Notes under the pieces: generated by a model
What the model saw: the letters and a program-made list of their open reading frames with translations, nothing else
The model's database searches: none
What the model was told of the DNA's origin: nothing
Origin: Clostridia bacterium
Lineage (GTDB): Bacteria; Bacillota_A; Clostridia; Christensenellales; Aristaeellaceae
Assembly (NCBI GenBank): GCA_017938645.1
Contig: JAGBBE010000004.1
Location: 1 to 24,393 of the forward strand
Direction of reading: 5' to 3'
DNA length: 24,393 nucleotides
Program-made: the position numbers and the translations under genes
Shown: one piece after another, positions 4,513 to 19,297 of the stretch
Position numbering within the stretch: position 1 is the stretch's first letter
How the letters are laid out: every line of letters starts with the position of its first letter

Positions 4513-4602
4513 TCTTTTGCTCCTCCTATTGTGGGGAGCACGATCGGTGTGGTAGAATATCCGTACTCCCCCGATGTTCGTCTTGGTTCATTGTGGGGCG
4601 TT

Positions 4603-4846: not shown

Positions 4847-4851
4847 GGACA

Positions 4852-5121
4852 TCACCTCACCGAGAAACGGCGCGTGGTTGTGGTCTTGGTGTAAGCCGCT
4901 GCCAACTCTGCATGATCCTTTTTGAAACTGGTACTGTCAAAAAGGCTGGTGGTGTAGGGTGTCCATGTGACCTTGAACGCCCCGGCCAGAAGAGTTTCTT
5001 CGTCGCCCATAACGGCCTTGATGGCTTCTTCGGCTTGGGTAATCTCGTTGTCCAGTTCTTCACGAAGACGCTTGAGTTCCAGCAGTTCTTTGATCTGGGC
5101 TTCCATGATGGGATTGCTCAT
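4852..5121 (-). CDS. Small coiled-coil protein of mobile-element type
   Basis: The 89-residue protein has an N-terminal helix likely to form a coiled coil (residues about 5-40, IKELLELKRLREELDNEI). A compact C-terminal part follows, with GAFKVTWTPY, a Phe-Asp-Ser segment and TKTTTTRRFSV at the end. From memory, small proteins ending in a T-x-x-RRF-x-V tail after an AGAFKVxW segment are common next to recombination genes in clostridial phages and integrative elements; their role is unknown. The ATG at 5121 has AAGGAGG 8 nt upstream, whereas a longer frame from 5157 has none. It is the first gene of a probable three-gene operon with the 73-residue protein and the ArdC-like gene. Confidence 0.7.
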   Translation of the reverse strand: MSNPIMEAQIKELLELKRLREELDNEITQAEEAIKAVMGDEETLLAGAFKVTWTPYTTSLFDSTSFKKDHAELAAAYTKTTTTRRFSVR

Positions 5122-5173
5122 GTAGGGTACCTCCTTTTGATTGTGGGTTGTGTTCAACCTTTACACCATTAAA

Positions 5174-5253
5174 ATACTTGTACAAGTATATGTAAATTGA
5201 CAAATTTCACAATTTTGTACAAGTATGTTTGTGCAAGATTATACTTGTACAAG
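5174..5253. promoter_or_regulatory. Cluster of CTTGTACAAG operator-like sites between divergent genes
   Basis: Four copies of a TTGTACAA-centred dyad lie in 80 bp: a perfect 16-bp palindrome (ATACTTGTACAAGTAT, 5174-5189), a 12-bp copy (5215-5226), a degenerate copy (TTGTGCAAG, 5229-5237) and a 13-bp copy (5241-5253). The outer copies overlap the -10 of the leftward promoter and the -35 of the rightward promoter. The obvious candidate to bind them is the ribbon-helix-helix protein encoded at 5293, but this is inferred. Confidence 0.7.
5185..5212 (-). promoter_or_regulatory. Leftward promoter for the small genes and ArdC
   Basis: On the minus strand TTGTGA (5212-5207), a 16-bp spacer and TATACT (5190-5185) form a plausible promoter about 65 bp upstream of the ATG at 5121. 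The -10 lies inside the 16-bp palindrome, so a protein bound there would block RNA polymerase. Confidence 0.5.
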
Positions 5254-5273
5254 ATGACGGGTTGAAATATAAT
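5245..5273 (+). promoter_or_regulatory. Rightward promoter for the ribbon-helix-helix gene
   Basis: TTGTAC (5245-5250), a 17-bp spacer and a perfect TATAAT (5268-5273) precede the start codon at 5293, giving a very short leader. The -35 is part of the rightmost CTTGTACAAG copy, an arrangement that suits autorepression. Confidence 0.6.
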
Positions 5274-5292
5274 AAAAATGGAGGTGAATACC

Positions 5293-5547
5293 ATGAGCGA
5301 AACCAGAGGAAAAGCCAGTACAAAGGCCAAAAACAAGTATAATGCGGCAAATTATGACAGCCTGCGTATTGTGATCCCCAAGGGCCGTAAGGAGCTTGTT
5401 GAGGAGTATGCCGCCACCTGCCCTGAAAAGTCGATCAACGGTTTGGTCAATGCGCTGTTGCGTAACGCGTTGGGCATGACAGAGGACGAATGGAAGGCGG
5501 ATAAAGAAGATGTGGAAGAGGGGGCTCAAAAAACCCCGCAGCCCTGA
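5293..5547 (+). CDS. Ribbon-helix-helix (Arc-type) DNA-binding protein
   Basis: The 84-residue protein has a basic N-terminus (ETRGKASTKAKNKYNAANYD). A short beta strand (SLRIVIPKGRK) and two helices (ELVEEYAATCPEKSINGLVNALLRNALG) follow, which is the layout of Arc/MetJ-type ribbon-helix-helix repressors. The tail is acidic. The ATG at 5293 follows GGAGGTGAATACC. An upstream in-frame ATG at 5278 contains this site and is unlikely to be used. Proteins of this kind regulate transfer or maintenance genes in integrative elements. It is divergent from the ArdC operon and shares its operator-rich control region, so it probably represses both directions. Confidence 0.75.
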   Translation: MSETRGKASTKAKNKYNAANYDSLRIVIPKGRKELVEEYAATCPEKSINGLVNALLRNALGMTEDEWKADKEDVEEGAQKTPQP

Positions 5548-5726
5548 CGTATTTATCGTCTAACTGCAGGGTGATGTGCATGCTCACTGACCAGCTTTTT
5601 GACCGCAATTCTGACCGCAATGCAGCTTTACACTGCTTGACTCCAGTTGACGTCAAAGCCATGAAAACGCTGGAAAAATGGATCTATTTTTACGAGCCTT
5701 TACGCTATTTTGCCTGTCATCTCAAA
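5548..5726. other. Non-coding left arm of the att region, with a 12-bp-spaced direct repeat
   Basis: No gene is supported here. TGACCGCAAT occurs twice (5600-5609 and 5612-5621), exactly 12 bp apart, with a partial third copy (TGACCAGC) just before. Closely spaced direct repeats beside an att core are typical arm-type binding sites of tyrosine integrases or their excision factors. Short frames in both directions lack ribosome binding sites. Confidence 0.45.
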
Positions 5727-5749
5727 TTCAAATCCTGTCACCTCGACCA
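5727..5749 (+). other. att core: 23-bp copy of a tRNA-Pro-like 3' end
   Basis: The 23 bases read as a T-loop (TTCAAAT), the 3' half of the T-stem (CCTGT), the 3' half of an acceptor stem (CACCTCG), a discriminator A and an encoded CCA. The same T-arm layout ending in CGACCA is that of bacterial tRNA-Pro. The bases to the left do not pair as a T-stem, and no anticodon or D-arm is present, so this is not a tRNA gene. A tRNA 3' end without its tRNA is the classical footprint of integration by a tyrosine recombinase. The isotype is inferred from memory of tRNA-Pro sequences. Confidence 0.7.
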
Positions 5750-5755
5750 GTTAGG

Positions 5756-5790
5756 AAAGTCTTGAAACGTATGGGTTTCAAGGCTTTTTT
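5756..5790 (+). terminator. Rho-independent terminator after the att core
   Basis: CTTGAAAC (5761-5768) pairs perfectly with GTTTCAAG (5775-5782) across a 6-nt loop. The stem can be extended by AAAGT/GCTTT-type pairs, and six T residues follow (5785-5790). It sits 6 bp after the tRNA-like 3' end, just where a tRNA terminator would be, so it probably travelled with the att core. Confidence 0.8.
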
Positions 5791-5843
5791 GTTATGTTCT
5801 TTTGTCTTGAATAAGACCTTGTTTTACTCTGTTTGGGGTGTTT

Positions 5844-5941
5844 TGTCACATCACCTGTCACAAACGTCTCCGCCAATAGTGAGCCAAACGCTTGTATCAT
5901 AAGGGTTTGACGACTTCTGCGGTTGTCACATTGCTGTCACA
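5844..5941. repeat. Paired TGTCACA direct repeats (integrase arm-type sites)
   Basis: TGTCACA occurs four times in two pairs: 5844-5850 and 5856-5862 (12 bp apart), then 5924-5930 and 5935-5941 (11 bp apart). The second pair is inside the 3' end of the integrase remnant. One helical turn within each pair, beside an att core that itself contains TGTCAC, fits arm-type sites of a tyrosine integrase. Confidence 0.6.
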
Positions 5942-6367
5942 AAAAGCAGGAGAAAACATGTTTTCAATACGCTGTCTGGCATGTTCTATGTCCTCCTGCT
6001 GCGTATGCGTGTAACGGTTTTTTAGCGTGTAGATGTCCGCATAGCCGCCAATGGATTGAAGCGTTTTCAACGGTACATTTTCCCTGTCTGCAAATGTCAT
6101 ATAGGTATGGCGAAATACATGCGGCGTTGCTCCATAGACATTGATAGTCCTTTTGATACGCTCCCACATGCGTTTCATTGTCTGCTCCGTGATGGGTTGC
6201 TCGTCGCCGCCAATGACAAACAGGTGGTTTGCTTGAGGATGTAGATACTGCCGTAGCGCGACAGGCATAGGAATAGAACGAATGGCGGCATTGGTTTTTG
6301 GAGTGTCAATGTGCGGCAGATTACATTTGAATGTTACCCCGCGAACCACATGGATAAGATTGTGCTT
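5897..6367 (-). pseudogene. Tyrosine integrase remnant 1 (C-terminal catalytic part)
   Basis: The frame encodes only the last part of a phage/ICE-type tyrosine integrase, about 155 residues where about 380-400 are normal. The first catalytic Arg lies in PKTNAAIRSIPMP, the H-x-x-R box is HVFRHTYMT, and the nucleophile region is NRYTHT. The usual GH of box II reads GGYADI, losing the conserved His/Trp. Upstream, the frame hits a TGA at 6368-6370 and more stops beyond, so the arm-binding and core-binding domains are gone. It cannot be active by itself. Its 3' end carries TGTCACA repeats and lies next to the att core, the normal place for an integrase gene. Confidence 0.85.
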
Positions 6368-6462
6368 TCAGGATTCTTTCTTTTATCTGAACATAGACAA
6401 ATCACCGCCCCTTGAATGCTTTCAGCCCGTTTTTTCAGAACGGATGTCAGTTTTCAGGGGGC

Positions 6463-6837
6463 TTATATCATTGTCAAAGGATTGCTATACAACGATTCTT
6501 CCGCCGTTGTATTTGTCAGTTGCCGTGTCAGATGATCGAAGTTTCTTCCGGCTTCCAATAACTTTTCATTCCGACTGTAAACATAGCGGTTCATGGTGGT
6601 CTGAATGTCCGCATGACCTGCAATGGCCTGTATGGTTTTGATGTTTGTGCCGGTTTCTCCCAGCATGGTCAGATAGGTATGGCGGAGGACATGAGGCGTC
6701 GCGCCATGCAGATTGATGGTCTTGCCAATTCTTTCCAATGCGTGGTCGAACATACTCTCTGTGATCGGCTGTTCCCCTCCGCCTATGACATAGCCTGTAC
6801 CGCCGTTCAGAAGCGGTTTAGCGGTTCTCAGGCACAC
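6463..6837 (-). pseudogene. Tyrosine integrase remnant 2 (C-terminal catalytic part)
   Basis: This is a second, different integrase 3' end. It has ATPHVLRHTYLT (H-x-x-R box), AGHADIQTTMNRY (box II His and nucleophile Tyr, both intact) and a C-terminal tail of about 35 residues. It is clearly related to remnant 1 (shared GGxEQPIT, TINxxGATPHVxRHTYxT) but too diverged to be a recent duplicate. The recognisable integrase sequence begins around residue 15 (GGTGYVIGG). Before that the frame passes into unrelated sequence and a stop near 6880. It is therefore 5'-truncated and inactive as it stands. Confidence 0.8.
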
Positions 6838-6893
6838 AAATTTCTGTGTAGCATCCGATTGATTGAAGCGTCTTGAACGGCGCTTTGGTCAGC
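6818..6893 (-). pseudogene. Possible third integrase sliver (box II segment)
   Basis: In a different minus-strand frame from remnant 2, this stretch reads APFKTLQSIGCYTEI and later ENR before a stop. Remnant 1 reads VPLKTLQSIGGYADI and KNR at the same spacing. The DNA is also similar around 6860-6875 (GATTGAAGCGT followed by AACGG, as near 6055-6070). I take this as a third, very short integrase relic, ending 9 bp before the stop codon of the GH3 gene, but the match is only about 22 residues long. Confidence 0.5.
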
Positions 6894-6901
6894 AGAAAAC
6901 G

Positions 6902-9082
6902 TCAACATTCAATTAAACCATGCACTCCACTCACGCTATCATGCGCCATCCATACATCAAAAAGACTGGTTTCAGAGCATTCGTTCATCAGCACATTATA
7001 GTAGGCCAGTGACTTTTGTGGCACGGTTATTTCAACCCTTTTGGATTCTCCAGGCTGGAGAAATACCTTGCAGATTCCTTTCAGTTCGCGCACAGGCCGC
7101 ACGCGAGCCGCTTTTCTGCGATGAATGTAGCATTGTACGGTCTCTTCACCAGCCATTGTGCCGGTATTGGCAACCATTACACTTGCACGGAAACCATCTT
7201 CCAGCTTATCCAACTGCAGATCGGAATAAGCGTATTCCGTATAGCTCAGGCCGTATCCAAATGGAAACAGCGCCCCGGCAGGCACGTCGGTGTACTTGCT
7301 TGTCCAGAGTGAATCCGCAGCCGGTCTGCCGGTATTTGGATGATTGTAATAAACCGGATTGTCCGCAGGATGACGGGGAAAGCTCATTGCGAGCCTGCCG
7401 CTGGGATTGTACCGTCCAAGAAGCACATCCGCCACCGCGTTGCCCGCTTCGGTTCCCGGATGCCATGCTTCCAGCAGAGCATCGGATAATTCCAGTTCTT
7501 CCGAAAGCGCAATCGGCCGTCCGTTGAACAATACGGTTATGAGCTTTTTCCCCATTCTCCGGATCGTACGAAGCATTTGCTTCTGCCCTTCACACAGCAT
7601 GAGATTGCAGCGCGAACTTGCCTCTCCGCTGGAAGAATAGGATACAGCCGCGATCACGATATCCGCATCAGCAATCGTATCCAGAAGCTCCGCTTCGTCG
7701 AGCGGTCGATTTTCTGCACAGCAGCGACCGCAGCGGAAGGATACGCCTGATTGTGTCAGGGCGTCACGAAGCGTAATGACATCCTCACTTGACCCTAAAG
7801 CGCTCCAGCAGCCCAGCATATCCCCTCGGTTCTGCGCGCAATCGCCGACAAGGGCGATTTTTTCATTGCCCGAAAGCGGAAGCAAATGTCCTTCGTTCTT
7901 CAGCAGCACCATCGAACGGCGGGCAATGTCCCGTGCCTGCTCGCGGTGTGCAGCACAAAGTTGGGAAACGGATATGTCTTCAGGCGTATAAGGCTTTTCA
8001 AACAATCCAAGCTTCATTTTCATGCGCAGAATGCAGCGTACGGCTTCATCCACAAAGCGGATATCCAGCTTGCCGCTTTCGACCAGCTGCGGAACATAGC
8101 GTGAATAGCACTCAGCACCCAGGTCGATATTTACCCCGGCTTCGGCTGCCTGCCGTGCAGCATCCTCAGCGTCTTCCGCCGTGCCGTGCTGAACGCATTC
8201 GCCAATGGCACTTGCATCGCTGATCACAGCGCCCTGAAAACCATACTGCTTACGAAGCACATCCTGCAGCAGATAGCGGTTGGTGGTGCACGGAATGCCG
8301 CTGAGATCATTGAATGCCGGCATCACCGCAAGACATCCGGCATCAACAGCCTCTTTGAACGGCGGAAGGTACATCTCATGAAGCATCGGCAGGCTCATAT
8401 CTACCGTGTTGTAATCACGTCCGCCTTCACATGCGCCGTAAGCAGCAAAGTGCTTGGCGCATGCAGCAATCCGCCCGGAAGCGGAGGGGTCTTGCCCCTG
8501 ATATCCGCGCACTTTGGCTCTGGCAATCCGGGAAGCCAGCCACGGATCCTCTCCAGGGCCTTCGGCACAGCGTCCCCAGCGCGCATCGCGGCTGATATCC
8601 AGCATGGGTGCATAGGTGCAGCGAATGCCCTGTTCCCACGCCTCCTGCGCCGCAATCCGTGCAGAGGTTTCCCAGCATTTTTCATCAAAGCTGCATGCTT
8701 CCGCCAAAGGAACCGGAAAGATGGTTTTCAGGCCATGTACAACATCCAGCGCAATCAGCAGCGGAATGCCCAGACGGCTTTCTTCCACAGCGATGCGCTG
8801 AAGACGGTTGATGCTTCCCGCGTCAAGCACCGCAATCAGCGAGCCTGCTTTTCCCTGCCGGATCAAATCCTCTGCCTGACGCTTGCTCTCGCCCATAACA
8901 ATGGAATCGTACTGTTCCTGCGTGATGCTGCCCTCCTCAAGCATAAGGCGGGCGTCCTCAGCGCTGATCTCAAAGCCTCCAACCGGAGAGGCGGACAGTT
9001 GATTCATCTGTCCTGCCTTTTCCTCCAGCGTCATCTTCGCAAGCAGTTCATCAATTCGTTGTTCAATATTGTTTGTCATCAT
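6902..9082 (-). CDS. GH3 beta-glycosidase (BglX-type)
   Basis: This 726-residue enzyme should hydrolyse terminal beta-linked sugars such as beta-glucosides or beta-xylosides with retention. Domain order is a TIM-like barrel (residues about 1-350), an alpha/beta sandwich (about 380-600) and a C-terminal fibronectin III-like domain (about 645-715). The nucleophile is D289 in GAVISDASA. Substrate-binding motifs DARWGR (166-171) and KHFAAYG (210-216) are intact. No signal peptide is present, so it acts in the cytoplasm on imported substrate. The ATG at 9082 overlaps the stop of the GH127 gene as ATGA, so translation is coupled. It is the last gene of the sugar operon, and the mobile-element relics start right after its stop. 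The precise sugar cannot be told. Confidence 0.93.
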   Translation of the reverse strand: MMTNNIEQRIDELLAKMTLEEKAGQMNQLSASPVGGFEISAEDARLMLEEGSITQEQYDSIVMGESKRQAEDLIRQGKAGSLIAVLDAGSINRLQRIAVEESRLGIPLLIALDVVHGLKTIFPVPLAEACSFDEKCWETSARIAAQEAWEQGIRCTYAPMLDISRDARWGRCAEGPGEDPWLASRIARAKVRGYQGQDPSASGRIAACAKHFAAYGACEGGRDYNTVDMSLPMLHEMYLPPFKEAVDAGCLAVMPAFNDLSGIPCTTNRYLLQDVLRKQYGFQGAVISDASAIGECVQHGTAEDAEDAARQAAEAGVNIDLGAECYSRYVPQLVESGKLDIRFVDEAVRCILRMKMKLGLFEKPYTPEDISVSQLCAAHREQARDIARRSMVLLKNEGHLLPLSGNEKIALVGDCAQNRGDMLGCWSALGSSEDVITLRDALTQSGVSFRCGRCCAENRPLDEAELLDTIADADIVIAAVSYSSSGEASSRCNLMLCEGQKQMLRTIRRMGKKLITVLFNGRPIALSEELELSDALLEAWHPGTEAGNAVADVLLGRYNPSGRLAMSFPRHPADNPVYYNHPNTGRPAADSLWTSKYTDVPAGALFPFGYGLSYTEYAYSDLQLDKLEDGFRASVMVANTGTMAGEETVQCYIHRRKAARVRPVRELKGICKVFLQPGESKRVEITVPQKSLAYYNVLMNECSETSLFDVWMAHDSVSGVHGLIEC

Positions 9083-10737
9083 TCTTTCACCACCGGGTAT
9101 ACACTGAAAGGTTCGTCATGGATATCAGCATATGCCCAGTATTCATGTGCCTGGTCGCCGCGCAGACGCAGCTTTCCTCCGGCCTTCTCAAACCATTCCT
9201 CCGGCTTTTCAGGATTCCACTTGACCTCCACAGGCCACGGAGAACCCATCGCCGCATACAGAAGCGGACCGTATTCCAGCGCATAGCGCTCTGCATCGGC
9301 ACGGCGTTCGCCGCCGGTGTAGCGCGTCACGCGGAAGTACATCGGCAGATCGAATTCGAATACATCGCCTGCCTGGACGTTCTCATGCACGACATAGTAC
9401 GATTTGCCGTCTTCGACAGCCCAGCGAGGCATGCGCAGATGAAGTTTGAAAGGCTTGTCCGCTCCTTTGATCGTCAGCTTCACATGCCCGTCATCCGGCA
9501 GATTGGTTTCGCACACCAGAGACACGCCATTGGGCAATTCAGCTTCGCTGGAGGCGTACAGATCCACATAGACGTCCTCAGGCGTATAGGCGTAGAGGAA
9601 CTGCGGAAGCAGGCCGCACAGTCGGGTGCCAAGGCTTGCGCAGCAGGTGGCGCGATCCAGATAGCGCCAGTCCTTGCCGCGTTCAAGGAAGTTGAGATAA
9701 TGGAAGCCAGTGCTGCCCACCTGTGCAGCCAGAAGGACATTGTAGATGGAGTTTTCGATCTCATCAGCATAATGCGCATTGTCGGGATCAAGCCTGCGCA
9801 TGCGCTGATTGAGCAGGATCCAGAAGTTGGTGGAGCACAGCTCGTTGTAGTTGTGCTTCGGGCTCAGCCACAGACAGCCGGGGAAGTACTCGTCCTCCTC
9901 GCACATGGCGATGCCTCCGCCCACATGCTGCCACTTGTCCTCATACATTTGCAGCGCGCTGACCACTGCGTTCCAGTACAGTTCATCGCCGGTCACGCGG
10001 TAGAGGTCGAGATACCCCTCCAAAGAAGTCAGCAGCGTGGAATGAGGATGATTGCCCGGGTGCTGATAGATGGCTCGGTGATCCTTTTCAATCAACTGCT
10101 TAAGCCACCACGTTTCCTGATAATACTTCTGCGCGACTTCGATGTCCTCCATCTTGCCAACGGGCGAATCATACACGCGGGTCGGCACAAGGATCCCCTG
10201 AAAACCGAGGTTCATGTCCTTGACATAGGGCAGCACCTCGCAGGTGTTGAAGAAATCCGTCATGCCGCGTGCCAGGTCAAAGGCGCGCTTGTGTCCGGCG
10301 TAGCCTGCATCCAGCAGACCGAAGGTGATCCACGCACGGGTGTAGTTGGGATATTCGCGGGTTTTGAATTCATCGCGGGTGATGGGAATGAGGAAACCAT
10401 CCTCCTCCTGATCATCCGCAATCTCGTCAAGGATCGCGTCAATGGTCTTGCGGAGTTCTTCGTCCTCCTGCCACAGGAGCGCAGTGCCTGCGCCCATCAT
10501 GAACTGTCCGGCCGTCTGGCCCTTGAGATTGTTTTCAAAATGACCTGCATCGGCGGCATAGGGTACGCCGGGCGCAGGCTTTCCTGCATGCACGCGGTAC
10601 CAGTAGAGCATGCGGTCAAGGTCAAAGCCTTTGAGGAAGGCAATATTGTTATCAAAAGACTTCTTCAGCCGGCCGCCGGTAAGACGCACGCCGCCGGTGG
10701 GGACATCCGCTTTGTATGCTACGCTGTATTTCGACAT
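9079..10737 (-). CDS. GH127-type glycosidase (DUF1680 family, beta-L-arabinofuranosidase-like)
   Basis: The 552-residue protein matches the GH127/DUF1680 family (PF07944): an alpha/alpha barrel (residues about 25-380) followed by beta-sandwich domains. In the characterised member HypBA1 a zinc ion is held by Glu, Cys and a Cys-Cys pair, one Cys being the nucleophile. Here E299-L-C301 (in YNELCST) and C365-C366 (in ATCCASLG) supply the same set, and E280-E281-D-E283 is a likely acid-base region. The family mainly releases beta-L-arabinofuranose, for instance from arabinosylated hydroxyproline, but includes other activities. No signal peptide is visible, so it is cytoplasmic. AAGGAGAAAACAT precedes the ATG. 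It lies 12 bp after the glycyl radical enzyme and overlaps the GH3 start by 4 bp. At 552 aa it is somewhat shorter than the roughly 650 aa of HypBA1. Confidence 0.85.
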   Translation of the reverse strand: MSKYSVAYKADVPTGGVRLTGGRLKKSFDNNIAFLKGFDLDRMLYWYRVHAGKPAPGVPYAADAGHFENNLKGQTAGQFMMGAGTALLWQEDEELRKTIDAILDEIADDQEEDGFLIPITRDEFKTREYPNYTRAWITFGLLDAGYAGHKRAFDLARGMTDFFNTCEVLPYVKDMNLGFQGILVPTRVYDSPVGKMEDIEVAQKYYQETWWLKQLIEKDHRAIYQHPGNHPHSTLLTSLEGYLDLYRVTGDELYWNAVVSALQMYEDKWQHVGGGIAMCEEDEYFPGCLWLSPKHNYNELCSTNFWILLNQRMRRLDPDNAHYADEIENSIYNVLLAAQVGSTGFHYLNFLERGKDWRYLDRATCCASLGTRLCGLLPQFLYAYTPEDVYVDLYASSEAELPNGVSLVCETNLPDDGHVKLTIKGADKPFKLHLRMPRWAVEDGKSYYVVHENVQAGDVFEFDLPMYFRVTRYTGGERRADAERYALEYGPLLYAAMGSPWPVEVKWNPEKPEEWFEKAGGKLRLRGDQAHEYWAYADIHDEPFSVYPVVKE

Positions 10738-10749
10738 ATGTTTTCTCCT

Positions 10750-12720
10750 TTATACGCTCTGGTAGCTCACGCGCTGCATGATCTGTTCCTGATAGGCACG
10801 ATCCAGCTGCACAAAGTGTCCGCTCCAGCCCCATACGCGCACGATCAGGCTGCGATGCTCCTCGGGATGCTCCATAGCAGCCTGAAGGGTTTCGCGGCTG
10901 ACGGCATTGAGCTGCATCTGATGTCCGCCCAGCAGGACGAAGCTGCGCACCAGCTGTGCTACCTTTTCCGATCCTTCGTCCGTACGGAAGACGGTATCGT
11001 GCAGTTCAAGGGTAAGCGGTCCGCCGTTGATAGCGCGGCTCACCTGGGGCAGCGCCATGGCCCGGATCACTGAAAGCGGACCCGCATCCTTCAAAAGCAG
11101 CGACGGCGAGAAGTTGGCCGGAAGGCGTTCTTCCGGCATATGGCCGTTGCAGAGCGCGGGCAGGCCGTCGGCATGCCACAGATAATACATGGCGCTGCCG
11201 GTTCCGGCGCGGAAAATGCCTCCGCGCTCGTTGCGAAGCGGTGCCAGCACGTCTGCAAAAGAGTCAAGCAGTTCGCCGCCGATTTCTTCGCATGCTTCGT
11301 CGCGGCCCAGCTTGGGAGCCTTTGTACGAAGCGTATGCTTGAGCGCAGAGTGGTTCTCATAGTCCGTTTCAAGCGCTTCCAGCAGTTCTTCCTTGCTGAT
11401 TTTTCCGGCGAACACCATGTCGCGGATTACCGCCAGCTGATCCACCGCGTCGCCGAAGCCCGTGCCATGAACGCCGTAGTTGTTGTATTTGGCGCCTTCG
11501 CTGATGTCACGGGTATAATCGCTCATCAGCACGCTCTGCCACGGAGCGGGCTCCATCCACAGGGATTTGACGCCTTCTGCAATCTTTTCGGCTTCAGAGG
11601 CGAGGTGCTCCCTGACCTTTGCAAAGAAATCACCGTAACTGCTGCATTCACGCAGATGCGAACGCACGCAGTCGCTGACGACATTGGCCAGCGGCATTGC
11701 GCCAATGTTGGGTATATCCATGCCCACGCCCGGAATGATGAACTCCCAGCATGCGGCAACTGTGTAATCCCGCGCATCCTCGACCGCATAGCCAAGCGCC
11801 GTCAGACCGGGAATGATGACGTCGTCGTTGGCGTACTGCGGGAATCCCAGTCCCTGCTTGGTCAGCTGCGTGGCAAGGCGATAAAGCTCCATGGGCGTGT
11901 TTTTATCCACGCGCAGGTTGATCTTTGGATCGATGCAGCGGTTATGCAGGCTGGCCTTGAGCGCAAGCTCCGTCAGAAGATTGACCGCGCAGGTCCCGTC
12001 GGGTTTCACGCCGCCCAGCATCATGCTCTGGCCGTTATCACCCTGCTGCATGCCGGTATAGAGATCGCTGTCGCGGTTAAAGGAGAGGAAAAACTCCTCC
12101 GTCCACTCCAGTGCAGATGCTTCATCCAGTGCTCCGCTTTCCAGATCAGCCTTGAGATACGGCCACATATACTGGTCAAAACGGCCTGCCGTGTTGTGAT
12201 ACACATTGCTGGCCCACAGGCAGAAGTGAAGGATGCGGAACGTTTTGAGCGCTTCGGGATAGGTTTTTGCACCTGTGCGGATGGCGCGGGACAAATCTGC
12301 ATCCTCATAGCGGTCGGCATAGGAAAGCACCGCGTCGATACACAGATCCCGCGCTTCGTTTCCCGTTTTGCGGCACAACAGACCGCTTTTCAGCACACCC
12401 GCCCAGTCGCTGGAGATGTTGCACACGCGTCCCTGCTCGTGGATGTAATGTCCGGACTGCAGCCTTTCCTTTTCGCCTTGCGCATAAATATCCGGGAAAG
12501 CGATGATGGTGCGCCAGGCCGGGATGCGTTCGCCGTAATGAATGATCTGTTCCATTTCCAGCAGGGTCTTCAGCCTGAGGACTGCGCGCATCTCCAGCGG
12601 TAATTCAGGCTGCTGGATCGTTTCGCTCACGCGCGTCCATTCCTCATGCGTCAGTTCACGCCGGTGGGCGCGGTGCGCGCCGGAAGAAAGAAAAGCCCTC
12701 TGTTCATCCATTCTGCTCAT
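10750..12720 (-). CDS. Glycyl radical enzyme of PFL/dehydratase superfamily, novel subfamily
   Basis: The C-terminal box RVWGWSG (628-634) carries the probable radical site Gly631, 26 residues from the end as in all glycyl radical enzymes. The active-site loop is C324-W-E326 (in VAACWEFIIPG). A Cys-x-Glu motif is typical of GRE dehydratases and lyases; pyruvate formate-lyase instead has two adjacent Cys. Other family landmarks are TAGRFDQYMWPYLKADLESG (177-196) and GDNGQSMMLGG (227-237). At 656 residues it is shorter than PFL (about 760) or the dehydratases (about 790-850). It requires anaerobic activation by the radical SAM protein just upstream, whose stop it overlaps (ATGA). Flanked by glycosidase genes, it probably acts on a sugar or aglycone from the same substrate. 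I cannot name the reaction. Confidence 0.88.
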   Translation of the reverse strand: MSRMDEQRAFLSSGAHRAHRRELTHEEWTRVSETIQQPELPLEMRAVLRLKTLLEMEQIIHYGERIPAWRTIIAFPDIYAQGEKERLQSGHYIHEQGRVCNISSDWAGVLKSGLLCRKTGNEARDLCIDAVLSYADRYEDADLSRAIRTGAKTYPEALKTFRILHFCLWASNVYHNTAGRFDQYMWPYLKADLESGALDEASALEWTEEFFLSFNRDSDLYTGMQQGDNGQSMMLGGVKPDGTCAVNLLTELALKASLHNRCIDPKINLRVDKNTPMELYRLATQLTKQGLGFPQYANDDVIIPGLTALGYAVEDARDYTVAACWEFIIPGVGMDIPNIGAMPLANVVSDCVRSHLRECSSYGDFFAKVREHLASEAEKIAEGVKSLWMEPAPWQSVLMSDYTRDISEGAKYNNYGVHGTGFGDAVDQLAVIRDMVFAGKISKEELLEALETDYENHSALKHTLRTKAPKLGRDEACEEIGGELLDSFADVLAPLRNERGGIFRAGTGSAMYYLWHADGLPALCNGHMPEERLPANFSPSLLLKDAGPLSVIRAMALPQVSRAINGGPLTLELHDTVFRTDEGSEKVAQLVRSFVLLGGHQMQLNAVSRETLQAAMEHPEEHRSLIVRVWGWSGHFVQLDRAYQEQIMQRVSYQSV

Positions 12721-13562
12721 AGGACATAAACCTCCATTCCCAGTTCTTCAAACGGTTTGGTGTGGATCTGCGGCGGCTGATCCACCGGAAAGCGCGGCTG
12801 ATACTGCATGCCGGCGCTTTGGTACTTTGCGCCTGCCGCCCTGTGATAGGGCAGAAGCTCCACCCTGTCCAGACACGCGGAACCTGCGATCAGTTCTGCT
12901 GTGCGGCGCATATTTTCTTCGGAATCATTAACCGTTGGGATCAGCGGAATGCGGATGCGGAAGGGCTTTGCGCATTCCTTGAGCCAACGGAGATTGGTCA
13001 GGATCCTCTGATTGGAGACCCCCGTCCATGTCCGGTGCGCATTCTCATCGGCAAGCTTCACATCCATGATCACATAATCCATGGCGGAAATGACGCGTTG
13101 GAAGGTTTCTTCATCGGCATAGCCGCTGGTTTCGATGCATTTGTGCACATCCGGAAGCAGACGGCAGACATCCAGCACGAAATCCGGCTGCATAAGCGGC
13201 TCGCCGCCGGAGAAGGTCACTCCTCCGGCGTTTAGTTTAAGAAGCGCCGCATTCTGCCGGATACGGCTGGCGATCTCTTCAGATTCAACGGGAATGCCGG
13301 CGATCCGGATGGCCTCCTGCGGACAATTTTCCGCACAAAGCCCGCAGCCGGTGCATTGTCCCAGCGAAGGACAACGCTCACTGCATGCGCCGCAGCGGAT
13401 ACACAGGCTGGATGAAATGATCCGCTGCGGTCCCGGAAGGAGCCCCTCGGGATTGTGACACCAGTTGCACCGCAGCGGACATCCTTTGAGGAACAAAACC
13501 GTTCGAATGCCTGGGCCGTCATAAACCGCGAACTCCTCGATATCAAAAATGGATCCTTTCAT
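12717..13562 (-). CDS. Glycyl radical enzyme activating enzyme (radical SAM)
   Basis: This 281-residue protein abstracts a hydrogen from the glycine of the GRE using S-adenosylmethionine. The radical SAM cluster motif CPLRCNWC gives C28, C32 and C35 (CX3CX2C). It is followed by a ferredoxin-like insert with two CX2CX2CX3C sets (C54/57/60/64 and C70/73/76/80), as in activases of the dehydratase-type GREs rather than the short PFL activase. VTFSGGEPL is the SAM-binding GGE motif. I chose the ATG at 13562, preceded by GAGGTAATTCC, over a TTG five codons upstream. It lies 40 bp after the GH31 gene and overlaps the GRE start as ATGA, which makes it the partner of that enzyme. Confidence 0.94.
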   Translation of the reverse strand: MKGSIFDIEEFAVYDGPGIRTVLFLKGCPLRCNWCHNPEGLLPGPQRIISSSLCIRCGACSERCPSLGQCTGCGLCAENCPQEAIRIAGIPVESEEIASRIRQNAALLKLNAGGVTFSGGEPLMQPDFVLDVCRLLPDVHKCIETSGYADEETFQRVISAMDYVIMDVKLADENAHRTWTGVSNQRILTNLRWLKECAKPFRIRIPLIPTVNDSEENMRRTAELIAGSACLDRVELLPYHRAAGAKYQSAGMQYQPRFPVDQPPQIHTKPFEELGMEVYVL

Positions 13563-13602
13563 GGAATTACCTCGCAAGTCTGCTTATGATCTTCTTCTAG
13601 AA

Positions 13603-15678
13603 TTACAAATACGCAAAACCTGTGTGGCTTTCCTGCACCCAGCGGTCATTTTTGTTTTCAAGGCGTACGATCAGCTTGCGTTGATCATGCAGGCGGATGC
13701 GCCACAGCCTTCCGTCAGTCATTCCTGCATAAGATCCTTCCGCCGTAGAAACCAGCAGCGTTACTTCCTCTTCAGATGCGTTCATGCAGATGCGTGTACC
13801 TGCAATCGCGCCGTCCGAATACGCCGCCGTTTCTCCATCGTCCTCATAGAGTACATACTGGCTTTCGCCGCTTTCCAGCGGGAAGAGGTGAACAACCGTT
13901 CCTTCACCGTCCTCCTGCGGGATGATGGCACCCTCACGAACCAGCAGCGCGCCGCCCCATTTTTCCTGGCGTTCATAGGCAACGGTCTGTCCGCCTTCCA
14001 TCCATTCGCCTGTCCATGCATCAAACCAACGGCCTTCAGGCAGCTGAAGCTCCTGCGTATAGCAGCCCACCATGAGCCATGGGCCGAACATGTACTGACG
14101 GGATACATCTTCAAATCCGCCAAAGGCCAGCGTCAGCGGGCGGATCATGGGCATGCCGGTCAGATGCGCCTCCAGAGCAGCAGAATAGATGTAGGGCAGC
14201 AGCCTTCCGCGCAGCTGGGCATAGCGGACAAACATATCTTTCATCTCTTCTCCCGCATACCACGGCTGACGTACGCCCTCCCATGCATTCAGATGCGCCC
14301 AGGGAGCAAAGAAGGCAAAGTGCTGGCTTTCGGGGGTAAAGATATCCATGTCCACCGTGGTGTTGGAAACGCCGGACATTGCCAGCGTCATCAGCCAGAT
14401 CATCGCGCCCAGCTCGCCGCCGTTGTCGCCGGTGGTTTGGGCGCACCATTTCTGCACGCCCATGTAACCGCCGCAGTAGTGCAGCATGGGGCGTCTGCCG
14501 GTCTGGCGTACAAATCCCTCATGCACCTGTTTGGGCAGAAGGAGCTGATTGAGATTGTGCATGCGTTCGTAGTACTCGCCGTTGGCGCAGTCACCGTAGG
14601 GATTGATGCTTTGCCCCATGGTCAGAAGATACGGATCCAGCATGTTGGCAGGGTCCAGCTTAAAGCCGTCCACGCCGGTTTTGACCAGTTCGCCCATATG
14701 GCGGTACCACGGCTCATACGCATTTTCGCTGCGAAGCCCCGCCTCGCGCTCCGCTTCATCTGTGAGGTCGTAATCCACACAGATCCACAGGCTCAGATGT
14801 ATGCCCATGCGCCTGAGCGCGCTGACAAAGGTATCGGGATACGGCTTATCCAGCAGCCATTTGGGCATATGATAGCGTTCCAGACACCACTCCTTATGGG
14901 TGGACATGTCATAGAATTTGGTCATCCATCCGGGTTCAAGGCTGAAGTGACAGCATGGAATGCCCAGCTCCTGCATCTTTTCAGCATCGCGCAGCACGTC
15001 AAACTGCGTGGCAAAGATGGGCGCGATGTAGGTCAGTCCATAGGCCCAGCGCGGGAGCACCATGGAGCGGCCGGTGATACGTGCGTACTGCTTCAGGATC
15101 TCCGCCATGGAAGCAGGCGCAAACACGACGACGTCCAGATCCTCGTAGCCGATCAGGCTGAGGTATCCCGTTCCGCGGCTGTTTACATCCACATAATGCT
15201 TGGTTTCCGCCAGCACAAGCAATCCCCATCCGCCGCTGCTCATGATCAGCGGCACAGGGATTTCATCCGCCTGATACTTGGCAAAATTCTGATAGGCGCG
15301 TCCGTTGAGGCAGACGCGGTCCTTGGAAGCTTCGCCCAGACCAAAGAAGCTTTCATCCTCCTTAACAGGAAAACGGATGGCAAAAGCGCCTTCCAGCGGT
15401 TTCCCGGCAGTGATGGGAAGTGCGTCCGGTTCGCCATCATCCGGGCGGCCGATGATCTGCTTGCGGTTGGTATCGAAAAACTGCTTTTCAAACGCCCGAC
15501 GTTCCTCAGCCCAGCTATCCCACAGGCATTCAAATTCAATTCCCGGGATACTCTGTGCTTCTTCGCCTTCGGGAAGCGCTGCGATCAGACCGTAGCGTTC
15601 CAGATAGGAAGGTCTCGTGCGCTCTCTGACCCGGATGCGCCAGACGTTGGATTCCAGCCTGCTAATGATGATGGACAT
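13603..15678 (-). CDS. GH31 alpha-glycosidase (alpha-xylosidase/alpha-glucosidase type)
   Basis: The 691-residue protein has the GH31 layout: an N-terminal beta-sandwich (residues about 1-195, with ESFFGLGEA), a TIM barrel (about 205-540) and C-terminal beta domains. The nucleophile is D342 in GVDGFKLDPANM. The acid/base is D418 in TTGDNGG, at the position of the usual GDN motif. GH31 enzymes release alpha-linked glucose, xylose or related sugars with retention; the specificity here is not clear, because the residues after the nucleophile (PANML) differ from the common FGE. No signal peptide is seen. The ATG at 15678 follows AGAGGTGAAGACG. It lies just after a terminator-like hairpin that separates it from the transporter genes. 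Confidence 0.9.
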   Translation of the reverse strand: MSIIISRLESNVWRIRVRERTRPSYLERYGLIAALPEGEEAQSIPGIEFECLWDSWAEERRAFEKQFFDTNRKQIIGRPDDGEPDALPITAGKPLEGAFAIRFPVKEDESFFGLGEASKDRVCLNGRAYQNFAKYQADEIPVPLIMSSGGWGLLVLAETKHYVDVNSRGTGYLSLIGYEDLDVVVFAPASMAEILKQYARITGRSMVLPRWAYGLTYIAPIFATQFDVLRDAEKMQELGIPCCHFSLEPGWMTKFYDMSTHKEWCLERYHMPKWLLDKPYPDTFVSALRRMGIHLSLWICVDYDLTDEAEREAGLRSENAYEPWYRHMGELVKTGVDGFKLDPANMLDPYLLTMGQSINPYGDCANGEYYERMHNLNQLLLPKQVHEGFVRQTGRRPMLHYCGGYMGVQKWCAQTTGDNGGELGAMIWLMTLAMSGVSNTTVDMDIFTPESQHFAFFAPWAHLNAWEGVRQPWYAGEEMKDMFVRYAQLRGRLLPYIYSAALEAHLTGMPMIRPLTLAFGGFEDVSRQYMFGPWLMVGCYTQELQLPEGRWFDAWTGEWMEGGQTVAYERQEKWGGALLVREGAIIPQEDGEGTVVHLFPLESGESQYVLYEDDGETAAYSDGAIAGTRICMNASEEEVTLLVSTAEGSYAGMTDGRLWRIRLHDQRKLIVRLENKNDRWVQESHTGFAYL

Positions 15679-15702: not shown

Positions 15703-15728
15703 AAAAAAGGGCAGCCCTCAAGCTGCCC
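15703..15728 (-). terminator. Internal Rho-independent terminator between transporter and enzymes
   Basis: On the minus strand a perfect 7-bp stem (GGGCAGC/GCTGCCC, 15722-15728 with 15709-15715) with a 6-nt loop is followed by TTTTTT (15708-15703). It lies 7 bp past the stop of the second permease and only 25 bp before the GH31 start, with no room for a promoter. Downstream genes must depend on read-through, giving more transporter than enzyme mRNA. Confidence 0.8.
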
Positions 15729-15734
15729 CTGAGA

Positions 15735-16625
15735 TCAGCCCTTGATGGCGCCGATCATGACGCCTTTGACAAAGTAACGCTGCAGGAACGGGTAAACCAC
15801 CAGAATCGGCACGGTTGCCACCATGATGGTACAGTATTTGATCAGATCGCGGTTGAATGCCTCCTCCACCATATCGGCGGCGCTGTCGGAGGCGTTGAGT
15901 TCGTTGAGAATGAGCATCTCGCGCAGAATCATCTGCAGCGGATAGAATTTGCGCTCGCGGTGGAAAATGAGCGAGGGATACCAGCTGTTCCACAGGCCTA
16001 CGGCATAATACATGCCGATAACCGCCAGCACCGGCACCGACAGCGGCAAAACAATATGTGCAAGGATCTGCACGTCGTTTGCACCGTCGAGCAAGGCGCT
16101 TTCCTCCAGCGCCTTGGGAAGCGAGAGGAAAAAGCTGCGCATAACGATGAGGTTGTAGGTACTCAGTGCATAGGGAATGATCATGGCCCAGCGTGTATTA
16201 TACATGCCCAGATTTTTGACCACAAAGAAGAACGGAATCAGTCCGCCGCCGAAGTACATGGTGAACATCATGGCCTTCATCATGAAGCGGCGCGGCAGGA
16301 AATAGTCGCGGCTGACCACGAACGCGCCCGCGATGGTCAGAAACATGCTGACGGCAGTGCCAACAACCACATAGAAGATGGTATTGCCGAAGCTGTTGAT
16401 GACGTTGAAGTTGGAAAGCACCGTGCGGTAGCCATCCAGCGTGAAGGGCTCAAGCGGCAGAAGCAGCAGCTGATTGTTGCGCAAAAGAGCGCGCGCATCG
16501 GAGAAAGAAGCGCACATTGTATAGTAGAGCGGATAGATCGTTACCAGCATGACGGCCGTCATCAGGATCATGATGAACAGATTGCACAGCCGGTAGGACC
16601 ACTTTCGGGATTCAGCAAAATTCAT
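15735..16625 (-). CDS. Carbohydrate ABC transporter permease (YtcP/LplC, MalG type)
   Basis: The 296-residue inner-membrane protein has six predicted transmembrane segments, the first at residues about 14-36. It carries the EAA loop that contacts the ATPase at residues about 174-194 (EESALLDGANDVQILAHIVLP). The C-terminal ending (FVKGVMIGAIKG) is characteristic of YtcP/LplC permeases, which pair with LplB-type permeases for import of complex sugars. GGAGATGAAAG precedes the ATG; the gap to the upstream permease is 12 bp. No ATPase gene is present in the operon, as is usual for this subfamily, which borrows a shared MsmX-type ATPase. Confidence 0.92.
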   Translation of the reverse strand: MNFAESRKWSYRLCNLFIMILMTAVMLVTIYPLYYTMCASFSDARALLRNNQLLLLPLEPFTLDGYRTVLSNFNVINSFGNTIFYVVVGTAVSMFLTIAGAFVVSRDYFLPRRFMMKAMMFTMYFGGGLIPFFFVVKNLGMYNTRWAMIIPYALSTYNLIVMRSFFLSLPKALEESALLDGANDVQILAHIVLPLSVPVLAVIGMYYAVGLWNSWYPSLIFHRERKFYPLQMILREMLILNELNASDSAADMVEEAFNRDLIKYCTIMVATVPILVVYPFLQRYFVKGVMIGAIKG

Positions 16626-16637
16626 TCTTTCATCTCC

Positions 16638-17588
16638 TTACCACAGACTGGTGTCGTTGACTTTGCGGGAGATGGTATTTGCGCCGACCAGCAGCAGGAT
16701 GTTGATCAGCGAGTTAAACAGGCCTACGGCGGAACCAAAACTGTACTCGTATTTGGTCAGGCCTGTACGATAGACGTAGGTGGAGATAACGTCGGCGGTT
16801 TCGTAGACGCGTTCGTTGTACAAAAGCACAATCTGATCCCAGCCAAGGCTCATCAGGTTTCCGATGCGCATGATCAGAAGGATGACCACCGTGGGCATGA
16901 TGCCGGGAATGGTTACATGGAGCATTCTGCGCCAGCGGCCTGCGCCGTCGATGAGAGCGGCTTCATGCTGTTCGGGATCAATGGCAGTGAGCGCCGCAAA
17001 AAAGATGATGGAATCCCAGCCCATATTCTGCCACACATTCATACCAATGTAGAGCGGCTGGAAATAGGATGGAACAGTAAACAGGTTGGTTTCTTTCATA
17101 CCGAAGTAGGAAAGCAGTCGGGTGAGGATACCGGTCGAGCCGGAAAACTGCAGCATCAGACCGCAGACCACAACAGTAGAAACGAAGTGAGGCATGTAGG
17201 TAACCGTTTGCGTCACACGCTGAAAACCACGGGAAGGCAATTCGTTGAGCAGCAGCGCAAACAGAATGGGAAGCGGGAAGCCGATCAGCAGCATACCCAG
17301 ATTGATCGACAGCGTATTTCGGACCAGACGGCCAAAATACATGCCGTTGATGAATTTGTCAAAATGCTTCAGGCCCACCCACTTGCTGCCAGCAATGCCT
17401 AGCGCAGGCTTAAAGTTCTGAAACGCGATGACAACGCCATACATCGGCCAGTAGCAGAAGATGATATAGTAGGCCACGACTGGCAGAGCCAGCAGATACA
17501 GCAGCGGATGATTGCGGATGTTCTCCCCAAGCCGCTTCAAAATGGATTTTCGCGGTCTGTTTACAGCGCTTCCTGCCGCAGCATTCAA
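16638..17588 (-). CDS. Carbohydrate ABC transporter permease (LplB, MalF type)
   Basis: The 316-residue membrane protein has a cytoplasmic basic N-terminus (RPRKSILKRL), about six transmembrane segments starting at residues 28-46, and the EAA loop at residues about 209-229 (EAALIDGAGRWRRMLHVTIP). The phrase YWPMYGVVIAFQNFKP after the first segment is typical of LplB-type permeases. The start is a TTG at 17588, supported by GGAGG 7 nt upstream; no ATG fits as well. It follows the binding-protein gene after 107 bp that hold a strong hairpin, and precedes the YtcP-type permease with a 12-bp gap. Confidence 0.92.
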   Translation of the reverse strand: MNAAAGSAVNRPRKSILKRLGENIRNHPLLYLLALPVVAYYIIFCYWPMYGVVIAFQNFKPALGIAGSKWVGLKHFDKFINGMYFGRLVRNTLSINLGMLLIGFPLPILFALLLNELPSRGFQRVTQTVTYMPHFVSTVVVCGLMLQFSGSTGILTRLLSYFGMKETNLFTVPSYFQPLYIGMNVWQNMGWDSIIFFAALTAIDPEQHEAALIDGAGRWRRMLHVTIPGIMPTVVILLIMRIGNLMSLGWDQIVLLYNERVYETADVISTYVYRTGLTKYEYSFGSAVGLFNSLINILLLVGANTISRKVNDTSLW

Positions 17589-17628: not shown

Positions 17629-17658
17629 GCGGGGAAGAACCTGCAGGCTCTTCCCCGC
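17629..17658 (-). other. Strong intercistronic stem-loop after the binding-protein gene
   Basis: GCGGGGAAGA (17629-17638) pairs perfectly with TCTTCCCCGC (17649-17658) around a 10-nt loop. No T-run follows on the minus strand, so it should not terminate strongly. Stems in this place, after a binding-protein gene, commonly act as 3' barriers to RNA decay and raise binding-protein levels relative to permeases. Confidence 0.7.
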
Positions 17659-17695: not shown

Positions 17696-19297
17696 TTAGC
17701 GGGCGTTGAAGCGATCCAGAGCAGCCTGCTGGGCAGCGATGGCGTCGTTGATGCCCATGCCTTCCAGACCAGCCACAGCCTCGGTCCAGGCAGCCACGTC
17801 GGCTTCGCCGCAGATGACCTTCAGAGCCAGCTCGGACATGTAGGTCTTGACTTCGGTCATGATCTCGTTAACGAGCACGTCCTCATCAGCGGTCAGCTCG
17901 ATGGCGCCGGGCACGATGCGGGAGTCGTCAACATTCTTGGTCCAGACATCCCAGCAATCCAGGTTGATCTGGGCGTTGTACTGGGCCAGCTCCATGGAGT
18001 CGAGAATCTGAGTGGTCAGGTTCTGGATGTAGTGGAGCAGGCGGTAGGTAGCGAAGGGGAAGTCGGGGTTGTTGCGCAGGTCGTCGGAGTAGTCATACTC
18101 GCCGTTTTCCTTGATGACGTAGGTGGTGGTGCCGTCGCCCAGATCGCCCACACCGAAGGTGTTGAGCAGGTTGATCTCGGGATCATACAGGCAGTCGATC
18201 CACTTCATGGCCAGCTCGGGGTTCTTGCAGCTGGTGGAGATGAAGTAGCGGAATCCGCCGGGACGGCCCAGAACGTTGGAGTAGCCCATGATTTCTTCGC
18301 CTTCAGCCTTGCGCAGGGAGCTGACGGGAACGATTTCGAACTTCTCGTCTTCCAGCTTGCCCAGCTGCTGTACTTCCTGGGTCTCCCAGTTGCCGATTTC
18401 GATCACGCCGGTCTGGCCAGCGAAGAACAGCTTGCGGCAGTCGTCATGAGTGCGGTTGATGTTGTCAACGTCGATGAGGCCTTCCTTCATCCAGCCAGCG
18501 AGCATCTCGAGGAACTCGCCGTAGCCGGGCTGCAGGTAGGAGTGGGTGATCTTGCCTTCGTCGTCCAGGATGAAGGTGTCCCAGGTCACGCCGTAGCCGG
18601 CGGAGAGGACGTTGCCGTTGGTGATGAAGTAATCAGAGAAGCCAGCGAAAGCGAAGGGAACGACTACATCGTAGTTTTCCTTGAAAGCACGCAGAACGTT
18701 GGTGAACTCTTCGAAGGTGGTGGGAACTTCCAGACCCAGAGCATCCAGCCAGTCCTTGCGGATGATCATGCCGGTGTGCTGCTTGCCGCGCACGACGTTG
18801 CTGCCGTTGTCAGCCATCTTGTACACGCCGCTGTCGGTCTTCATGGCCAGCTGGTCGGTAGCAGACTGGGCATTGAACATGGCCAGGTAGTTGGGAGCGT
18901 ACTTTTCGATGAGCTCGTTGTGGTTGATGATGATGCCGTCGGCGATAGCGCCGTCGACCTTGCCGGGATAGCGGCTGATTTCATCAGCGGCCACGAACAC
19001 GTCCGGATAGTCGCCGGAAGCGATCAGCATGTTGAAGAAGGTGCCGTCGTCGCCGATGGGCGGGCAGGTCCATTCAACATGAACGCCGGTGAGCTCTTCG
19101 AGCTTCTTGATGGTGGGGCTGTCGTTGAGGGTTTCCATCAGCTGCTGAGAGCCGGAAGCCATCTGCATGTACACAGTCAGAGTGGTGGGTTCGTCAACCA
19201 GAGGCAGCTTATAGACGTATTCCTCAGCCGCAGCCATACCGCAGCAGGCCATCATAACGCACAGCGTCAGAGCAAGCAGTCGGATCAGTTTCTTCAT
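17696..19297 (-). CDS. Extracellular carbohydrate-binding protein of ABC importer (LplA/YtcQ type)
   Basis: The 533-residue protein begins with a secretion signal: basic KKLIR, hydrophobic core to about residue 22, then AAA-EE, giving a likely cut after residue 24. Cysteines at 17-18 (MMACCG) could instead be a poor lipobox; lipid anchoring is usual in Gram-positives but the motif is weak. The mature part is a large family-1 type solute-binding protein, with LTVYMQ near its start and two alpha/beta lobes. The ATG at 19297 has GGAGGAATCC upstream. It is the first gene of the operon. By eye the codon choice is very biased (GAG, AAG, GCC, CTG, GAC, ATC dominate), more than in the enzyme genes, suggesting high expression. 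Confidence 0.92.
   Translation of the reverse strand: MKKLIRLLALTLCVMMACCGMAAAEEYVYKLPLVDEPTTLTVYMQMASGSQQLMETLNDSPTIKKLEELTGVHVEWTCPPIGDDGTFFNMLIASGDYPDVFVAADEISRYPGKVDGAIADGIIINHNELIEKYAPNYLAMFNAQSATDQLAMKTDSGVYKMADNGSNVVRGKQHTGMIIRKDWLDALGLEVPTTFEEFTNVLRAFKENYDVVVPFAFAGFSDYFITNGNVLSAGYGVTWDTFILDDEGKITHSYLQPGYGEFLEMLAGWMKEGLIDVDNINRTHDDCRKLFFAGQTGVIEIGNWETQEVQQLGKLEDEKFEIVPVSSLRKAEGEEIMGYSNVLGRPGGFRYFISTSCKNPELAMKWIDCLYDPEINLLNTFGVGDLGDGTTTYVIKENGEYDYSDDLRNNPDFPFATYRLLHYIQNLTTQILDSMELAQYNAQINLDCWDVWTKNVDDSRIVPGAIELTADEDVLVNEIMTEVKTYMSELALKVICGEADVAAWTEAVAGLEGMGINDAIAAQQAALDRFNAR

Follow-up and report, generated by a model that had tools for sequence, protein, structure and literature searches.

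A 24,393-nucleotide stretch of DNA from a Clostridia bacterium (GenBank assembly GCA_017938645.1, contig JAGBBE010000004.1; hereafter the window) carries, in an operon with glycosidase genes, the gene of a short glycyl radical enzyme (GRE) that reaches the score cut-off of none of the characterised GRE families tested. We propose that this enzyme and its relatives are short glycyl radical eliminases that make up a family of their own, as yet uncharacterised. Tentatively, the enzyme can be read as the signature of a short eliminase family whose substrate is a free sugar or a compound directly derived from one, with L-arabinose as the best-supported sugar, a reading that we consider plausible but somewhat short of probable. 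We have fair confidence in a sugar C-O lyase chemistry and moderate confidence in L-arabinose or its derivative as the substrate; a 2-deoxy product is a speculative lead.

The hallmarks of the GRE superfamily were all found: a glycyl radical domain (PF01228, 62.8 bits against a cut-off of 22.2), an active-site cysteine loop and a partner radical SAM activase whose gene overlaps that of the GRE by 4 bp. The radical motif RVWGWSG with Gly631 is conserved in at least 95% of the 81 sequences compared, and the thiyl position, Cys324, lies within C324-W325-E326, the CXE Cys-loop motif of GRE eliminases (PMC7077986, excerpt). The best Pfam stretch spans profile positions 245-637 of 647 (PFL-like). 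For the predicted model of the protein (pLDDT 90.2), the best Foldseek match is 1r8w, and dehydratases of glycerol and of 1,2-propanediol are among the top structural matches. By sequence, the PDB entries closest to the enzyme are glycerol dehydratase and PflD at approximately 25% identity, with trans-4-hydroxy-L-proline dehydratase (HypD) among the nearest four. On the NCBIfam GRE models the enzyme scored 228 bits for PFL2-3 (cut-off 678), 212.6 for HypD (1100), 160 for CutC (1050) and 26.7 for pyruvate formate-lyase (994), and by these cut-offs pyruvate formate-lyase, HypD, CutC and the sulfonate lyases were rejected as its identity.

In a protein search, 7,715 of the 7,998 candidates scored passed; the best 120 of these 7,715 matches are 63-97% identical, and all but one are 639-675 residues long. 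A genome scan gave 311 GRE relatives, the best 80 of which (45-79% identity; Bacillota, mostly Clostridia, Bacteroidota and Verrucomicrobiota) were used as loci, designated by L numbers, and with the window added make up the 81 sequences; second GRE copies in three genomes were excluded from the counts. The family is short (mostly 640-700 residues) and keeps the CXE motif, and conservation reaches 95% or more at 154 of 656 positions, among them most positions of the blocks YHNT (174-177), QQGDNGQS (225-232), DPKINLR (264-270), AACWEF (322-327) and WGWS (630-633). In a FastTree phylogeny with E. coli YbiW and PflD as the sole characterised GREs, a long branch sets the 81 members apart from these two; the firm clustering with pyruvate formate-lyase or a known dehydratase, for which an earlier sequence-only reading of this DNA had allowed, did not occur there. 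No paper on this family was found among the literature matches listed (open-licence papers, without preprints), which speaks only weakly for novelty. Likewise, none in the open-licence literature was found to treat GH127 together with a glycyl radical enzyme, and no mention of a sugar or glycosidase was found in PMC11528403. What would be new here is a GRE family outside the named families; sugar-acting GREs as such are already known from YbiW and PflD (PMC12441222, excerpt).

The arrangement of the genes is not a chance one: the activase gene adjoins the GRE gene in 71 of the 81 loci, window included, and the adjacency of GRE and GH127 recurs among the relatives. Glycosidase families were counted genome-wide for 40 of the 80 loci, which we selected mostly for their longer contigs, and proximity was defined as within 10 kb of the GRE gene. 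GH127 genes lay this close in 8 of the 40 genomes (1.03 expected, Poisson P = 1e-5) and GH51-type genes in 9 (0.63 expected, P = 3e-8), so that an absence of the linkage in all relatives was not what we observed. GH3 genes were close to the GRE gene in at least 2 of the 40 genomes among the matches listed (1.44 expected, P = 0.42), which is chance level, although they are commoner than GH51-type genes (213 versus 86 matches); one further GH3 gene, in L025, lies slightly over 10 kb away. By BLAST against a simple set of open reading frames (ORFs), in which some genes are missed, a GH31 like that of the window was found in 2 and a GH3 in 4 of the 80 relatives, and weak GH3 matches occurred in 3 of 8 further regions from the family of L046. 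With these counts and the lack of GH3 enrichment, GH31-GRE-GH127-GH3 was rejected as a conserved unit, and the three-glycosidase operon of the sequence-only reading gives way to recurrent L-arabinofuranosidases. The linkage to GH31 and GH3 is local, while that to L-arabinofuranosidases (GH127 and GH51-type) is recurrent.

The window GH127 is a short form that gave no match to the C-terminal domain and is remote from the solved members. Its ExC and CC motifs are kept as NELCST and TCCAS, aligned to those of 6ex6; these residues (the Glu/Cys set of HypBA1) presumably bind zinc. Both motifs are the same in five of six cluster members, and L077 has NELCCT and HCCCG. The short GH127 is 70-73% identical in L002, L007 and L052 and 85% identical in the genome of L001; despite its closely similar GH127, L052 has a GRE that shares only about 50% identity with that of the window. 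Among 396 genomes of the order, the GRE was found in 16, the short GH127 in 5 and both in 4 (P = 9e-6), a co-occurrence test that is partly non-blind because two of the four are source genomes of loci used here. In two of the four, the two genes lie on different contigs. In L001, the closest relative, two consecutive GH127 genes follow the GRE gene (5833-9425), one of the short form and one encoding a full-length protein of 644 residues with M and C domains.

The operon of the window runs on the minus strand from the importer genes through GH31, activase, GRE and GH127 to GH3, with the features listed in the table.

Features of the operon in the window and the evidence for each assignment
Feature	Position	Strand	Evidence
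Solute-binding protein of sugar ABC importer	17696..19297	-	PF01547/PF13416 above cut-off
Strong hairpin 3' of binding-protein gene	17629..17658	-	13-bp stem; z -5.5; 0/200 shuffles equal
ABC permease, UgpA-like	16638..17588	-	PF00528; top NCBIfam matches UgpA/GlcT, below cut-off
ABC permease, GlcU/MalG-like	15735..16625	-	PF00528; NCBIfam GlcU/MalG matches below cut-off
Terminator-like GC-rich hairpin + T6 between last permease and GH31	15703..15728	-	Read from sequence
GH31 glycosidase	13603..15678	-	PF01055, PF21365, PF17137; top NCBIfam match alpha-xylosidase, below cut-off
Radical SAM GRE activase	12717..13562	-	PF04055, PF00037; TIGR02494 271 bits, cut-off 174
Short GRE, 656 aa	10750..12720	-	PF02901, PF01228; C324 in C-W-E; G631 in RVWGWSG
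Short-form GH127, 552 aa, beta-L-arabinofuranosidase family	9079..10737	-	PF07944 101 bits (cut-off 24.9), PF20736
GH3 glycosidase, BglX-like	6902..9082	-	PF00933, PF01915, PF14310; BglX NF011678 691.5 bits, cut-off 666

The five same-strand genes that had been described behind the sugar importer, with 4-bp ATGA overlaps between activase and GRE (12717-12720) and between GH127 and GH3 (9079-9082) and gaps of 40 bp between GH31 and activase and of 12 bp, with an AGGAG site, between GRE and GH127, proved exact throughout; the caveat is the hairpin with T6 before GH31. This hairpin (-18.7 kcal/mol) is moderately better than its shuffles, 15 of 200 folding equally well, and is absent from the output of the terminator scan; the importer and enzyme genes may be transcribed separately at this point. 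The GH31 gene starts with ATG at 15678 in a frame open to 15687. The activase starts with ATG, with a TTG upstream at 13577, and has a CxxxCxxC motif and two ferredoxin-type cluster motifs. The Pfam scan took in 20 window ORFs (70 of at least 80 residues exist, mostly overlapping), and in none of these 20 did it detect an importer ATPase, a shell protein, an aldehyde or alcohol dehydrogenase or a member of a PTS family. The absence of a dehydrogenase, shell gene or dedicated transporter noted earlier therefore holds for the window and breaks down in some relatives, as Bacteroidota copies adjoin an MFS sugar symporter and some Bacillota copies are accompanied by alcohol dehydrogenases, kinases and aldolases.

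On the 3' side of the operon lies the remnant of a mobile element (2829-6837) with a resolvase N-domain (2829-3467), an ArdC-type antirestriction protein (3685-4512) and two separate integrase pieces (5897-6349 and 6463-6837), the latter beginning 64 bp past the GH3 stop on the same strand. Beyond it, downstream on the same strand, a LacI regulator (1422-2480) and an FAD-dependent oxidoreductase (PF12831, 400 bits) occupy the region 2-2480. On the importer side, a divergent AraC-type regulator of 689 residues (19641-21710, plus strand) and a LuxR-type response regulator (22821-23453) were found; the ORF upstream of the latter (23446-24357) has no Pfam match.

Operon neighbours of the GRE genes were defined as same-strand genes of at least 150 residues with gaps of up to 200 bp (n = 213); the Pfam tallies cover 144 of them, the other 69 being left out by our choice, plus the GH127 of L041, which lies 325 bp from its neighbour and was added by hand. 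In 22 Bacteroidota and Verrucomicrobiota loci (57 proteins) we counted 20 sugar MFS transporters, 9 GH51-type alpha-L-arabinofuranosidases, 6 aldose 1-epimerases, 3 melibiases and 2 GH127 enzymes. A representative Bacteroidota MFS transporter is closest to a D-xylose symporter, and by BLAST 23 of the 80 loci carry this transporter or a related one. The 37 other, mostly Clostridia loci (88 proteins) hold 8 LacI regulators, 6 GH127 enzymes, 2 FGGY kinases, 2 GH43 and 2 GH28 enzymes, together with parts of ribose-type importers (8 Peripla_BP_4, 4 ABC_tran, 4 BPD_transp_2).

Four loci, L046 (Diplocloster agilis), L105, L104 and L065, combine an FGGY kinase (truncated by the end of the stretch in L104) with DeoC, a Zn-alcohol dehydrogenase and an NHL-propeller-like protein, for which only weak matches were obtained. 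L046 and L065 stand in different clades of the tree, and L105 is close kin of L046. DeoC scored 230-231 bits (cut-off 117) in the two proteins scanned, and the DeoC proteins of this module retain the lysine and aspartate positions that we take to be catalytic in the E. coli enzyme. The L104 binding protein is similar to monosaccharide binders of the ribose type. Aldo-keto reductases 54-55% identical to E. coli Gpr, which is annotated as L-glyceraldehyde 3-phosphate reductase, are present in L046 and L104 (411 and 400 bits on the NCBIfam Gpr model, somewhat under its cut-off of 448), and the copy in L105 is 97% identical to that of L046; L065 has no aldo-keto reductase that close to Gpr. It is suggestive that cleavage of an L-configured 2-deoxy-pentose phosphate by DeoC would yield L-glyceraldehyde 3-phosphate, the substrate of Gpr.

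A cupin-like protein (ureidoglycolate lyase/DUF4867 match) is encoded directly upstream of the activase in L046 (8556-9053) and L105 and near the GRE in L079 and L062. In E. coli K-12 (L112, 516-3103), yjjI, which we take to encode a GRE, and the GRE-activase gene yjjW adjoin deoC, possibly a second GRE-DeoC neighbourhood. A link of the family to YjjI was rejected, as only weak matches occurred among the BLAST matches listed (best L003, E = 0.002).

The sequence-only reading had proposed radical chemistry on a sugar or an aglycone released by the glycosidases. A sugar is the best reading, because the cut-off of no characterised family tested is reached, the window ORFs scanned showed no GRE partner enzyme or microcompartment gene, and many of the relatives lie beside sugar importers or glycosidases; no support was found for an aglycone. 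In the mechanism that we envisage, the ABC importer would bring in oligosaccharides from which the glycosidases, GH127 above all, would release monosaccharides in the cytoplasm. The activase would place the radical on Gly631, the Cys324 thiyl would take a hydrogen next to a hydroxyl with Glu326 assisting as base, and elimination of water would leave a deoxy-carbonyl sugar. The substrate pocket is predicted to be lined by conserved residues, among them Y174, H175, Q225, D228, N229, K266, N268, R270 and N338. In the few Bacillota relatives with the DeoC module, the FGGY kinase could phosphorylate the product and the DeoC-type aldolase split it into acetaldehyde and glyceraldehyde phosphate, and a comparable route might serve the window. 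A 2-deoxy-pentose might be reached in two ways: L-arabinitol could be dehydrated in the manner of glycerol dehydratase acting on glycerol, or the ring could lose water to form a 3-keto-2-deoxy sugar that is then reduced, similar to the half-reaction of ribonucleotide reductase. The complete scheme would be an undescribed pentose pathway in which a GRE pentose/pentitol dehydratase strips the 2-hydroxyl of plant L-arabinose to give a compound at the 2-deoxy-L-pentose level, which the FGGY kinase and DeoC-type aldolase convert into acetaldehyde and L-glyceraldehyde-3-phosphate and a Gpr-like reductase into sn-glycerol-3-phosphate; as a whole we regard it as rather unlikely.

Few plant sugars reach the gut in larger amounts than arabinose. 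The recurrent pairing in some plant-fibre-eating anaerobes suggests an undescribed breakdown of this sugar and gives a substrate shortlist for an orphan GRE linked repeatedly to arabinofuranosidases. It may thus reveal a new point at which plant pentoses enter the fermentation of bacteria from herbivore guts and digesters. If true, an oxygen-sensitive radical alternative to the isomerase-kinase-epimerase route would exist, with the radical enzyme in three phyla.

Several observations weigh against an L-arabinose-directed eliminase. The P values given above treat the genomes as independent, and five of the nine genomes with a nearby GH51-type gene are closely related to one another. This worry is partly answered by the tree, on which the GH127 label requires a minimum of 8 changes and the GH51 label a minimum of 5; some of these changes may be losses or reflect short contigs instead of gains. 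These labels were assigned by BLAST with one representative per arabinofuranosidase type, by which remote members may escape, and L047 and L071, which carry both types, were labelled GH127; by this measure both GH127 and GH51 are missing from the available flank in 60 of the 81 tree rows (58 unlabelled and 2 with DeoC only). Fold scores fail to separate the eliminases, and the comparisons of pocket residues are sequence alignments of low confidence around residues 221-230. FGGY kinase and DeoC-type genes were not seen in the window, and the DeoC module is confined to its four loci. The aldose epimerase in Bacteroidota suggests an aldose, while the simplest DeoC route starts from an alditol. 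In L109, L074 and L058 the GRE is paired with an SftI-like isomerase, which had no PDB match, and in L109 and L074 also with a kinase and a class II aldolase; these loci differ from the DeoC loci, and the downstream route is therefore not fixed. Finally, L-arabinose isomerase is above cut-off in 16 of the 40 GRE genomes, so the GRE does not simply replace it; as many of the other genomes are metagenome assemblies, loss of the isomerase was rejected as support. Some GRE copies also lie beside GH36, raffinose-synthase-like, trehalase-like or GH106 genes.

A subclade of the GRE (L068, L075 and partly L042) follows raffinose-synthase-like, GH36, trehalase-like and phosphoesterase genes (L068, 2169-14516), with an additional MFS gene upstream and a PHP-domain protein downstream of the GRE in L068, and these neighbours hint at another sugar. 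Such heterogeneity, together with the many rows without the link, would be expected if the sugar varied between subfamilies and the arabinofuranosidases merely reflected a plant-fibre diet, an unlikely explanation but one that deserves to be taken seriously. It leaves unaccounted for that GH3, likewise typical of fibre degraders and commoner than GH51-type genes, is unenriched near the GRE, that the arabinofuranosidase labels switch repeatedly across the tree and that the rare short GH127 co-occurs with the GRE.

The B12-independent glycerol/1,2-propanediol dehydratase shares the eliminase fold and the CXE motif with the window GRE and provides its best Foldseek match. The GRE might thus act in the last stage of pentose or deoxyhexose fermentation, dehydrating a small diol (ethylene glycol derived from glycolaldehyde, 1,2-propanediol or glycerol) instead of acting on the sugar itself. 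The isomerase, kinase and class II aldolase of L109 and L074, with an Fe-alcohol dehydrogenase in L109, show the layout of diol-ending pathways. However, H281, S282 and D447 of glycerol dehydratase, which we take to be its substrate contacts, align (moderate confidence) with Y174, H175 and N338 of the window GRE, all conserved in the family. Phe333 of the same enzyme (PMC7077986, excerpt) aligns with Gln225 at low confidence only. Since a diol dehydratase would also leave the recurrent arabinofuranosidases and the Bacteroidota epimerases unexplained, with no diol-forming enzyme there among the families listed (25 of 34), and the window ORFs scanned contain no microcompartment or aldehyde-processing genes, we find this alternative doubtful.

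An action on anhydro-sugars or sugar phosphates, the ring being opened by C-O cleavage as by the 1,5-anhydro-sugar-6-phosphate lyases PflD and YbiW, appears quite improbable. At approximately 25% identity, PflD (765 residues) and YbiW (810) are 110-155 residues longer than the 656 of the window GRE, and of 51 family-conserved sites compared, 15 are the same in PflD and 11 in YbiW, 36 to 40 being changed. Furthermore, E. coli pflD lies among PTS genes, of which there were none among the 20 window ORFs scanned, and anhydro-sugars would not be expected as products of GH127 or GH51 enzymes.

Characterised GH127 enzymes act on extensin-type hydroxyproline arabinosides, and HypD, likewise a CXE eliminase, is among the nearest PDB sequences, but it is very improbable that GH127 removes beta-L-arabinose from these arabinosides for the GRE to dehydrate the freed hydroxyproline, since the score on the HypD model (NF043068) is a fifth of its cut-off, the essential Asp278 of HypD is aligned with the invariant His175, the segment with Asp339/Phe340 has no counterpart in the alignment, no proline-pathway gene occurs among the labelled neighbours, and GH51 enzymes and sugar symporters point to a sugar.

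The sugar eliminase that we favour can also be set beside further known systems. Pyruvate formate-lyase shares the superfamily, the Gly radical domain and the activase, but differs in its model (TIGR01255) being far from reached and in its pair of adjacent cysteines, C418/C419 (PMC10591478, excerpt), where the window GRE has C-W. GRE microcompartment loci hold shell proteins and aldehyde-processing enzymes nearby (PMC6325248, excerpt), in contrast to the 20 window ORFs scanned. The short window GH127 lacks the C-terminal domain match of the HypBA1-type GH127 beta-L-arabinofuranosidase but resembles it in the Pfam catalytic domain, which scores above cut-off, and in the ExC and CC motifs.

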